From: Methanobrevibacter ruminantium M1
GTDB lineage: Archaea; Methanobacteriota; Methanobacteria; Methanobacteriales; Methanobacteriaceae
Direction: 5' to 3'
Length of the DNA: 64,000 nt
Assembly (NCBI RefSeq): GCF_000024185.1
Contig: NC_013790.1
Span: forward strand, 558,001 to 622,000
This document shows positions 44,919 through 47,294 of this stretch, in pieces (within the stretch, counting starts at the first letter, position 1; each line of letters opens with the position of its first letter). The notes under the pieces are model-generated. The model saw only the letters and a list, made by a program, of their open reading frames with translations, was not told the origin of the DNA and did no database searches. Position numbers and translations under genes: made by a program.

Positions 44919-44954
44919 ATTTTTTTAATGCTTTTTTTATTATTTAATATAGTA

Positions 44955-45106
44955 TTACATTGGAGTGTAATAAAAAAGGTGATTTTTATTACATTGGAGT
45001 GTAATTAAAACTAGGGATTTTATTGCATTGGAGTGTAATAAAAAAGGTGATTTTTATTACATTGGAGTGTAATAAAAAAGGTGATTTTTATTACATTGGA
45101 GTGTAA
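44955..45106. repeat. Five 34-bp-spaced repeats upstream of orc1/cdc6, possible origin boxes
   Basis: The 16-base motif TTACATTGGAGTGTAA occurs at 44955, 44989, 45057 and 45091, with a one-base variant (TTGCA at its start) at 45023. The starts are exactly 34 bases apart. The arms TTACA/TGTAA are inverted repeats. Read on the minus strand it is TTACACTCCAATGTAA, sharing TTACACT with the mini-ORB sequence recalled for Methanothermobacter. The array lies 110 bases before orc1/cdc6, the place where archaeal origins and autoregulatory sites often are. Repeats are seen directly; the origin role is inferred. Confidence 0.7.
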
Positions 45107-45215: not shown

Positions 45216-46334
45216 ATGGCAATAGAAGATATTTTGATGTTTGACGAGACAATATTTAATGATATAAATGCATTCAATCCAGACTATATGCCACCTAACT
45301 ATAATTTTAGAGACAGTCAGATGGAAGGAATGGCTATGGCTATACGCCCTGCCATAAGAGGTGGACGTCCAACCAATTCAGTAATATTAGGATCATGCGC
45401 TACAGGTAAGACAACTGCAATTAAAAAGGTATTTGAATTGGTTGAAAAGACTACAGATAAAGTGGTTTGTGTTTATATCAATTGTCAGCTTCACACTACA
45501 CGTTTTGGAATCTTTTCTCAAATTCATAAAAAGATATTTGGACATCAGCCTCCAGAGACTGGAGTTCCATTCTCAAGGGTATATGAAAAGGTTATGGATA
45601 AACTTTCCTCAGATGGAAAGTCTCTTATTGTTGCCTTTGATGATGTAAACTATCTATTCCAGACTCCTCATGCAAACAAGGTATTCTATGATATCCTTAG
45701 GGCCTATGAGGAATATGAAGGGGTAAGAACAGGAATCTTTGCAATCCTTTCAGACTTGGAGTTTCGATTCGCCCTTGACAAGAATGTAAATACCGTATTC
45801 ATTCCTCAAGACATTGTATTTCCGCCTTATAACTATAGCGAGATATTCAGCATTCTAAAGGATAGGGCTAAGGCAGGATTCTTCCCAGGTGTTGTCTCTG
45901 ATGAAATCATTGAAGAGATAGCCAATCAGACCTATGAAGTAGGTGACTTGAGAGTGGGAATTGACCTTTTAAGGGTTAGCGGAAACATTGCCGAATCCAA
46001 TGCAAGCAGAACCATAGAATTGGAGCATGTTGAAGAGGCAGTTGCAAAGCAAGGCTCTGTTAATCTTATGGAAACAATCAATTCATTGAATGACTTAGAA
46101 AAAACCATGATCAAGGTCTTAATTGATAGGGATGAGGTTGTTACAGCAGGAGCATTGTCTAAGGAATTTAAGGAGCAGGCTGGAGTAAGCTATGCGACAT
46201 TCAACAGAACCCTTGAAAAGTTGGAATTCTTAAGATTGGTTGATACAAGGTATACAGGAAAAGGAGTAAGAGGCAATTCCAGGGAGATAATTTTAAGATT
46301 CTCTCCAGAGGATATTAAACGTTGCAATCTTTAG
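45216..46334 (+). CDS. cdc6: Orc1/Cdc6 replication initiator
   Basis: An origin-recognition AAA+ ATPase of 372 residues. Walker A is GSCATGKTT (about 59-67), Walker B is LIVAFDDVNYL, sensor regions follow, with YNYSEIFSILKDRA, and EVGDLRVGIDLLRVSG belongs to the sensor 2 area. A winged-helix domain follows from about residue 285 (LNDLEKTMIKVLIDRDEVVTAG, shown in part) and should bind DNA. The ATG at 45216 begins the conserved N-terminus; there is no binding site, and TTTTTTATATT about 25 bases upstream suggests a leaderless transcript. Upstream is the repeat array that it may bind. Which paralogue number it is cannot be told. Confidence 0.93.
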   Translation: MAIEDILMFDETIFNDINAFNPDYMPPNYNFRDSQMEGMAMAIRPAIRGGRPTNSVILGSCATGKTTAIKKVFELVEKTTDKVVCVYINCQLHTTRFGIFSQIHKKIFGHQPPETGVPFSRVYEKVMDKLSSDGKSLIVAFDDVNYLFQTPHANKVFYDILRAYEEYEGVRTGIFAILSDLEFRFALDKNVNTVFIPQDIVFPPYNYSEIFSILKDRAKAGFFPGVVSDEIIEEIANQTYEVGDLRVGIDLLRVSGNIAESNASRTIELEHVEEAVAKQGSVNLMETINSLNDLEKTMIKVLIDRDEVVTAGALSKEFKEQAGVSYATFNRTLEKLEFLRLVDTRYTGKGVRGNSREIILRFSPEDIKRCNL

Positions 46335-46640
46335 ATAATTCATACTCTTTGTCTATTTATTTTAAGTTGTTCTTATTTAAGGGTTTTTTTTTTATTAAAA
46401 CTCTTATTAAGCCCGCCCAATGCTTATTCAACTTTTTTTTAACTCTTTTTATTTTTTTTCATATTTTTATCAACTTTTTTTTAACTCTTTTTAGCTTTTT
46501 TCATTTTTACATTTTTATAACTTCTATTTTAGTATTTATTTAGTAAAATAAGTATCTATTCGTATTTAATTAATAAAAAGAGCAATATAATTGGTAAATA
46601 AATAAACGAATTATTTTAAATCTTATAAAAAAAAGAAAAT
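46335..46640. other. AT-rich region after orc1/cdc6
   Basis: Very AT-rich, with a doubled T-rich segment (CAACTTTTTTTTAACTC at about 46430 and 46469) and no credible gene. CTTATAAAA at 46622-46630 is a TATA-like box pointing to the RNA-like element that follows. The region could serve as an unwinding element if an origin is here. Confidence 0.4.
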
Positions 46641-46859
46641 TATTAAAGGATGTGTTGTGTTTTATATTAAATCTAGCTATGTGAGAAGTTTTAGATTAAA
46701 TATAAATTCTTGTTTCGATTTATTCAATTATTAAAATATTAAATTTGGGTCATTTTTTTAAATGATTAATTTAATAGTTTTTTAAAATAAAGCGGCTGTG
46801 AATACTATGCAGGATAATATTCATAGTTTTATAGTATTGATTGCACACATCCTTTAATA
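46641..46859 (+). ncRNA. Possible structured RNA (or small TIR element)
   Basis: A 219-base element closed by a perfect 15-bp inverted repeat, TATTAAAGGATGTGT (46641-46655) with its complement at 46845-46859. Inside are three further helices: 46665-46675 with 46692-46702 (one mismatch), 46738-46745 with 46768-46775 extended by 46750-46755 with 46760-46765, and 46801-46808 with 46831-46838. Together they would make a four-way junction. A TATA-like box lies just upstream, and GAACATTTGTTC followed by T-runs lies downstream. The helices are seen in the sequence; that it is transcribed is inferred. A miniature transposable element with terminal inverted repeats is the main alternative. No known family was recognised. 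Confidence 0.45.
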
Positions 46860-46886
46860 GATAATGGGTTTGGTTATTTATACCGC

Positions 46887-46975
46887 GAACATTTGTTCTA
46901 GGCTTTTTTTTATGCCATGAACATTTGTTTTAGGCTTTTTTTATACTCAGAACATTTTTCTAAGATACTTTTACT
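46887..46975 (+). terminator. Repeated GAACATTTGTTC hairpins with T-runs
   Basis: GAACATTTGTTC (46887-46898) is a 5-bp inverted repeat followed by TAGGC and eight T. A close copy is at 46919-46945, and a weaker third (GAACATTTTTCT) at 46950. Serial weak terminators for the upstream RNA-like element are a reasonable reading. Confidence 0.45.
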
Positions 46976-46998: not shown

Positions 46999-47190
46999 TT
47001 ATACCCAGAGCATAAAATCTGGGCTTGGAGCTGCACTTACAGCTAAAATAGATAAAAGCAATACTGTAAACACTACAAATATTACCATGCAATCTTTAAT
47101 GTTTATTCTAAGGTTGTTGAAAGTCAAAGGATCTCTTAAATTTTGTTTTTTTCTTAAATCACAAGTTCTGTTATTATGGCTTACCATCAT
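46999..47190 (-). CDS. Small protein with hydrophobic segment (63 residues)
   Basis: An ATG at 47190 (or the next ATG, 47187) follows GGCGAGGTGA on the minus strand, a strong ribosome binding site. The peptide is polar and basic at first (RTCDLRKKQNLRDPLTFNN), then has a strongly hydrophobic segment (VIFVVFTVLLLSILAVSAA) and ends in PSPDFMLWV. It looks like a signal-anchored small protein. Its last codons form a 6-bp hairpin (CCCAGA/TCTGGG, 47003-47022). I do not recognise a family. The ribosome binding site and the layout make it more credible than other short frames here. Confidence 0.55.
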   Translation of the reverse strand: MMVSHNNRTCDLRKKQNLRDPLTFNNLRINIKDCMVIFVVFTVLLLSILAVSAAPSPDFMLWV

Positions 47191-47294
47191 TTTCACCTCG
47201 CCTTTAGTTAAATTTTTTCATGTGTACTAATAGTAAGTTTTAAAGAGTATATAAAAAAAGAGCAAGAGAGCATTTGAAAACTAATCAAGGTGTA

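Follow-up and report, generated by a model that had tools for sequence, protein, structure and literature searches.

A noncoding element of 219 nt beside the orc1/cdc6 gene of Methanobrevibacter ruminantium M1, at 46641-46859 of the window (the whole 64,000-nt stretch of DNA that was analysed), appears to belong to a conserved structured RNA. The simplest account of all observations would be a structured 3' UTR, or a 3'-UTR-derived sRNA, whose seed covers the start of the gene for an RPA-type single-strand-DNA-binding protein. Conservation, synteny, structure, the complementarity to the RPA start together with its co-occurrence, and a common promoter motif were observed directly in the genomes compared. 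We propose, with a probability of about 0.5, that the RNA derives from the mRNA of a small membrane protein, that its seed pairs with the RPA start and limits translation, and that it thereby acts as a brake within a DNA-repair regulon.

Extent, conservation and strand of the element

The segments 46641-46655 and 46845-46859 form a perfect inverted repeat of 15 bp, as had been stated in a preliminary description made from the letters alone. The folding beyond chance expectation in AT-rich DNA that it claimed was also confirmed, with predicted folds of the 219 nt at -54.1 kcal/mol (z -6.1) on the plus strand and -44.5 kcal/mol (z -8.05) on the minus strand, neither of which was equalled by any of 200 dinucleotide shuffles. 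The longest open frame is 30 codons on either strand; a coding element was rejected on this ground, in agreement with the noncoding character first assigned. Only one full-length copy is present in the M1 genome (a single contig of 2,937,203 bp). No match to Rfam covariance models was obtained at the gathering threshold in the window and 10 relatives, nor any credible match for the element below it, and the literature search found no transcript for the locus. A 13-mer, GUUGANCCAUGCA, resembles the 5' end of 16S rRNA, and the other exact copies that were read are apparent coding sequence.

The conserved part reaches beyond the inverted repeat, as far as the motif ACCAAACCC at 46866-46874 on the minus strand, which lies 5' of the closing stem P1 and is hereafter called the seed. 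On the strand of the small ORF, P1 is made by the 5' arm TATTAAAGGATGTGT (46845-46859) and the 3' arm ACACATCCTTTAATA (46641-46655), and is followed directly by a U-run, TTTTCTTTTTTTT (46627-46639), a candidate transcript end. Within P1, CTATGAATATTATCCTGCA (46808-46826, minus strand) comprises the 5' strand of a helix, P2, and a loop motif ending in an invariant UGCA; its columns are invariant in 13 genus homologues, and it is the counterpart of a ...CAUGCA motif in other genera. The 3' strand of P2, as placed by the alignment of 13 homologues, is CTTCTCACATAG (46677-46688, minus strand), with CATCTCATAA in relatives. In M1, tandem copies of about 32 nt that resemble the 3' end of the small ORF sit at 46874-46964, between the ORF stop and the element, and contain a GAACATTTGTTC palindrome and a T-run.

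An orthologous element, one per genome, was found by DNA search and pattern search in 14 of the 19 genomes of the genus, M1 included, and a further, diverged element was read directly in G009; the genus-type pattern has no copy among 120 genomes of other genera. On the minus strand the constants in the genus are AACCAAACCC, the closing stem, CTATGAATATTATCNTGCA and CATCTCAYA. Element length varies from 128 to 254 nt among homologues, and many close relatives have an element of 128-132 nt that lacks the large hairpin at 46716-46793; the large internal hairpins of M1 are therefore no general feature of the element. The several internal helices of the preliminary description stand as strong folding in M1, but are largely lineage-specific, and P1 and P2 are the only helices conserved. 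Two departures from the common form were noted: in about 10 relatives (L052-L057, L060-L063) the conserved sequence runs on along the ORF strand past P1 as far as ...CACCATACATCAATTTTTACTTTTTTT, some 250 nt from the seed, as though their RNA were extended, a feature absent from M1; and in the element of L063 (G017) the TTGCACGATAATATTCATAAAC block is partly duplicated around an insert richer in GC, which could be an assembly artefact.

The element follows the small ORF (46999-47196, minus strand), lying just 3' of it in all 14 genus homologues first aligned. The ORF encodes a protein of 65 aa with one hydrophobic stretch, without a match in Pfam or NCBIfam, and occurs in 122 of the 139 genomes of the family, spread over 15 of 17 genera. 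Relative to cdc6 and rtcB, the element, small ORF and archease are flipped together as one block in 9 of 13 relatives, and the cdc6 tree requires at least two orientation changes of the block; no long flanking inverted repeat was found in the M1 segment 46335-48301 (compared with L051-L063). As the block inverts together, the element is linked to the small ORF and not to cdc6. Outside the genus, shorter homologues with ACCAAACCC, a helix and a ...CAUGCA loop are found directly 3' of the small ORF in the Methanobacteriaceae genera g3, g6, g7, g8 and g9, the last of which includes M. smithii (G041). A covariance model built from g9 only matched the syntenic site across g9 with E-values down to 3e-15 and in four genomes of g6 and g8 (G024, G027, G030, G031) with E-values of 3e-4 to 5e-3, and gave weak matches in the right place in g3, in G009 and in the genus of M1. 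Methanothermobacter and the other sister family have the small ORF, which there ends near the cdc6 stop, and no such element was seen at this site. In g4 and g15 (L095, L128-L130), GTTGAACCATGCA, which is like the loop motif of other genera, runs antisense inside the 3' end of cdc6 (NKCMVQP stop); these two genera were left out of the membership, the g15 motif overlapping the cdc6 tail.

Both helices are kept through changes on both sides, which supports a conserved structured RNA. In P2, 7 of 9 pairs are changed on both sides (25 cells), a score reached by none of 500 shuffles and compared with at most 11 cells in slid controls, in an alignment that was fitted to the model, which favours structure, and in which 3 of 50 rows are antisense hits; within g9 alone, P2 is nearly invariant. 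P1 has been replaced wholesale with pairing kept in G009 (GTTGATATAACC), in two of four g6 genomes (CTATTACTTTA) and in both g3 genomes (AATACTACCAA), where the replaced stems pair over 11-13 bp and were matched by 0-3 of 200 shuffles; P1 is not evident in g9 and ambiguous in g8. Judged from these alignments, the conserved core consists of P1, the covarying P2 and the invariant 5' motif ACCAAACCC. An undescribed structured RNA had been among the first suggestions, and this one is borne out by the lack of an Rfam match, the homologues in other genera, the swapped yet pairing P1 and the covariation of P2.

In the 100 nt that follow the closing stem, 13 of 14 homologues have a run of at least five T on the minus strand, against 3 of 14 on the plus strand. 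The TATA box region of the small ORF, TTTTTTTATATA (47248-47259, minus strand), is kept in 14 genus homologues, and its Shine-Dalgarno sequence is conserved as well. The G-U statistics of P1 (on the ORF strand, 3 cells are G-U and 11 are A-C, the majority outside the perfect stem) leave the strand undecided. The minus strand is favoured because of the linkage to the ORF, the conserved TATA box and Shine-Dalgarno sequence, and the T-runs after P1. In most genomes the element immediately follows the ORF, and P1 is followed by a U-run; the functional RNA would be a 3' UTR, or a 3'-UTR-derived sRNA, of the ORF at 46999-47196.

Complementarity to the RPA start

The seed ACCAAACCC is the exact reverse complement of GGGTTTGGT, which extends across the Shine-Dalgarno and start region of the RPA gene (GAGGGTTTGGTATG). 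When the leaders of genes bearing the promoter motif described below were checked for this complement, RPA was the sole match. The predicted duplex of ACCAAACCC with GGGUUUGGU AUG of RPA comprises 9 bp in M1 and is wider in g9, with energies of -16.1 kcal/mol in M1 and up to -23.0 kcal/mol for the cognate pair in M. smithii. The predicted unpaired probability of the seed is 0.82 in M1 and average in several relatives. Across 30 aligned homologues of another genus, the seed is invariant save for A or G at position 1.

RPA starts were read across the order, and for the 14 genomes in which the automatic start finder missed or misplaced them, the printed contexts were used where readable. The exact GGGTTTGGT stands before the ATG in 16 of 17 genomes of the M1 genus, 19 of 20 in g9, the single g3 genome, both g7 genomes and one of five in g8. 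It was found at no RPA start in g4, g5, g6, g10, g11, g13 (6), g14-g17, g12/Methanosphaera (9), f2 (4) or f3/Methanothermobacter (8); in the outgroup families f2 and f3, the RPA start reads, for example, GAGGGACCCAAATG. In the genomes that have the seed intact and an RPA start that could be read (n=37, hand tally, the genomes not being independent), 30 pairs match at 9/9 and seven at 8/9. The one uncompensated mismatch in these seven affects all three readable g6 genomes, whose RPA start is GGGTCTGGT, two g8 genomes, G017 and G101. Genomes that lack the seed match at 8/9 (G023) or fewer positions; g5, which has no seed, has an 8/9 target, and in g11 and in G033 of g8 the seed and its target are both degenerate. 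As read from these starts, the RPA match is missing or degenerate in most genera without the seed. The seed variants GCCAAACCC (7 of 30) and ACCAAACCU (G028) would still allow pairing by G-U. No compensatory double change of seed and target was seen among these genomes, only G-U-compatible seed changes and single target mismatches, so that the pairing potential is conserved mostly through invariance.

By duplex energy, RPA ranks about 4th of about 600 gene starts in a search that covered 29% of M1 and allowed lenient alternative starts. One second gene start with GGGTTTGGT was found in that part of the genome: a gene for a 643-aa DUF515-like membrane protein at G000:C1:2365486 (minus strand), which starts GAGGGTTTGGTGATATG with the same 9-mer as RPA and is a possible second target of the seed. 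The 5' UTR of the small-ORF mRNA itself was also considered as a partner and rejected, as it forms only long weak duplexes with the element that differ in each species.

A promoter motif common to DNA-repair genes

Upstream of the small ORF lies a motif, TTTTCAAATGCTCTC (47266-47280, minus strand), that motif search found to be common to DNA-repair genes; in the genus, the promoter region reads ATTASTTTTCAAATGCTCTC and then TTTTTTTATATA. Its core TTTTCANATGCTCTC is found 11 times in exact form in M1, in most cases ahead of a TATA-like box. Besides the window site, the combination of ATTASTTTTCANATGCTCTC with a TATA box was located at G000:C1:222728, 1044497, 1308411, 1443802, 1697491, 2007250, 2132916, 2584621 and 2713194 (L203-L212; L215-L225). 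According to Pfam, the M1 genes with the motif encode an RPA-type OB protein, NurA, Hjc, a Hef-like helicase, a LigT phosphoesterase and HemD, alongside the small ORF, and the motif is also found upstream of proteins without a Pfam match; in G073, the corresponding genes are those for UvrA, a Hel308-like helicase, TopoVI-B, Hjc and RPA, and again the small ORF. The distance from the motif to GGGTTTGGT at RPA is about 208 nt in M1 and 69 nt in G073, and no occurrence of GGGTTTGGT turned up in the leaders of the other genes with the motif that were checked. We regard the genes with ATTASTTTTCANATGCTCTC and a TATA box as a candidate DNA-repair regulon of Methanobacteriales, and no such regulon was found described in the literature searched.

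A known system offers a partial parallel. In Sulfolobales, Orc1-2 is a DNA-damage regulator that binds ANTTTC (PMC9738581). The two cases are alike in that a non-initiator Orc1/Cdc6 paralogue lies beside repair-linked genes and repair genes share a promoter motif, but the M1 motif is TTTTCANATGCTCTC, with the core AGTTTTCAAATGCTCTC, and not ANTTTC (PMC9738581), and the RNA component of the M1 system has no known counterpart there. By analogy, cdc6-2 may govern the TTTTCANATGCTCTC regulon.

Alternative explanations and a proposed repair circuit

The orc1/cdc6 gene that neighbours the element is identified as cdc6-2 (mru0423; 45219-46334, plus strand) because the genome is that of M1; it is convergent with the small ORF, and the oriC of M1 has been assigned upstream of cdc6-1, or mru0001 (PMC2812497). 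Given that assignment, and the ties of the element to the small ORF and not to cdc6, it is very improbable that the element is part of a replication origin, as had been considered at first, or a DNA cruciform near orc1/cdc6. It does adjoin cdc6-2, and directly upstream of that gene (44953-45106) a 34-bp unit with TTACATTGGAGTGTAA stands in 4.5 tandem copies, possible binding sites, but this repeat is confined to M1 among the loci compared and was not found in the relatives' loci examined. To a miniature inverted-repeat transposable element, another early suggestion, we give almost no credence: there is a terminal inverted repeat, but M1 has a single full-length copy, and each relative one copy at a single orthologous site. 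Nor is the plus strand a probable source of the functional RNA, whether as the four-way junction first envisaged or as the 3' UTR of cdc6-2. Its folding is significant, and folding z-scores, better on the minus strand in most relatives, are better on the plus strand in some, such as L053. Against this, 9 of 13 relatives do not have the element downstream of cdc6, 11 of 14 homologues lack a T-run after the stem on that strand, and the alignment contains no conserved plus-strand promoter. The TATA-like box once proposed there is not supported by conservation, the T-run hairpins placed downstream on that strand are the local tandem copies described above, and the four-way junction is not supported either, P1 and P2 alone being conserved.

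The most serious competitor, unlikely as we consider it, accepts the minus-strand structured 3' UTR and confines its role to terminating and stabilising the small-ORF mRNA, or separating it from cdc6-2, with an RPA match that is coincidental or otherwise caused. Synteny with the ORF, the terminator-like P1 and U-run of M1, the T-runs in 13 of 14 homologues and a structure kept while its sequence changes all agree with such a role, as does an RPA match that is not unique in the sampled M1 genome; what it leaves unexplained are the invariant, unpaired ACCAAACCC and the exact complement of it on the RPA start in element-bearing genera, which is lost or degenerate in most others. It is rather improbable that GGGTTTGGT/ACCAAACCC is the DNA site of a protein, for example a regulator of repair genes, occurring both in the leader of RPA and beyond the 3' end of the small ORF. 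Double-stranded sites are indeed independent of orientation, and the upstream promoter motif is common to both loci. However, the RPA site falls exactly between the Shine-Dalgarno sequence and the start codon while its distance from the promoter motif shifts from about 208 to 69 nt, no such site was found in the other motif-gene leaders checked, and the seed variants are of the kind that keeps RNA pairing by G-U.

Under the reading that we prefer, a structured 3' UTR or derived sRNA acting on RPA, transcription on the minus strand would begin from the promoter at about 47248-47280 and end in the U-run at 46639-46627, and the element would serve as the structured 3' UTR of the mRNA for the small membrane protein, or be released from this UTR by processing as an sRNA. 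P1 and P2 would form a stable body, with the seed ACCAAACCC displayed unpaired just 5' of it and free to pair in trans with GGGUUUGGU on the RPA mRNA. Such pairing would span the Shine-Dalgarno sequence together with the bases leading to the start codon (GAGGGUUUGGUAUG), and RPA translation would be limited as a result. The small ORF and RPA both have ATTASTTTTCANATGCTCTC ahead of a TATA box, in common with Hjc, NurA, the Hef-like helicase and others, and as the RNA and RPA appear to share this promoter motif, RPA would be restrained by an incoherent feed-forward loop that gives the DNA-repair regulon its own brake or timer. Transcription and processing, the seed-target pairing, the repressive sign of that pairing and a connection with DNA damage are what we infer.

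Trans-acting sRNAs that mask a ribosome-binding site, including sRNAs derived from 3' UTRs, are established in bacteria, and archaeal examples come from Methanosarcina and Haloferax. The candidate RNA resembles them in having a short conserved single-stranded seed against the Shine-Dalgarno sequence and start codon of another mRNA, a structured body and a U-run. It differs in that no Rfam family matches it and that its place is 3' of an ORF for a small membrane protein, within what is presumed to be an archaeal repair regulon. SidA and YneA are small SOS-induced membrane proteins that delay cell division, and the small ORF likewise encodes a tiny single-TM protein under a repair-gene promoter motif; the likeness is one of size and promoter motif only, and a sequence relation is not claimed.

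In a broader and more tentative reading, the element would represent an unrecognised regulatory RNA family of Methanobacteriaceae, derived from the 3' end of a membrane-protein mRNA of the repair regulon, that sets the level of RPA by means of its invariant seed, within a new regulon marked by TTTTCANATGCTCTC and perhaps governed by Cdc6-2. M. ruminantium and M. smithii dominate methane production in rumen and human gut. To our knowledge, few archaeal sRNAs have a target backed by conservation across genera, and here the seed-target pair, the promoter motif and the small protein would together make up one testable circuit.
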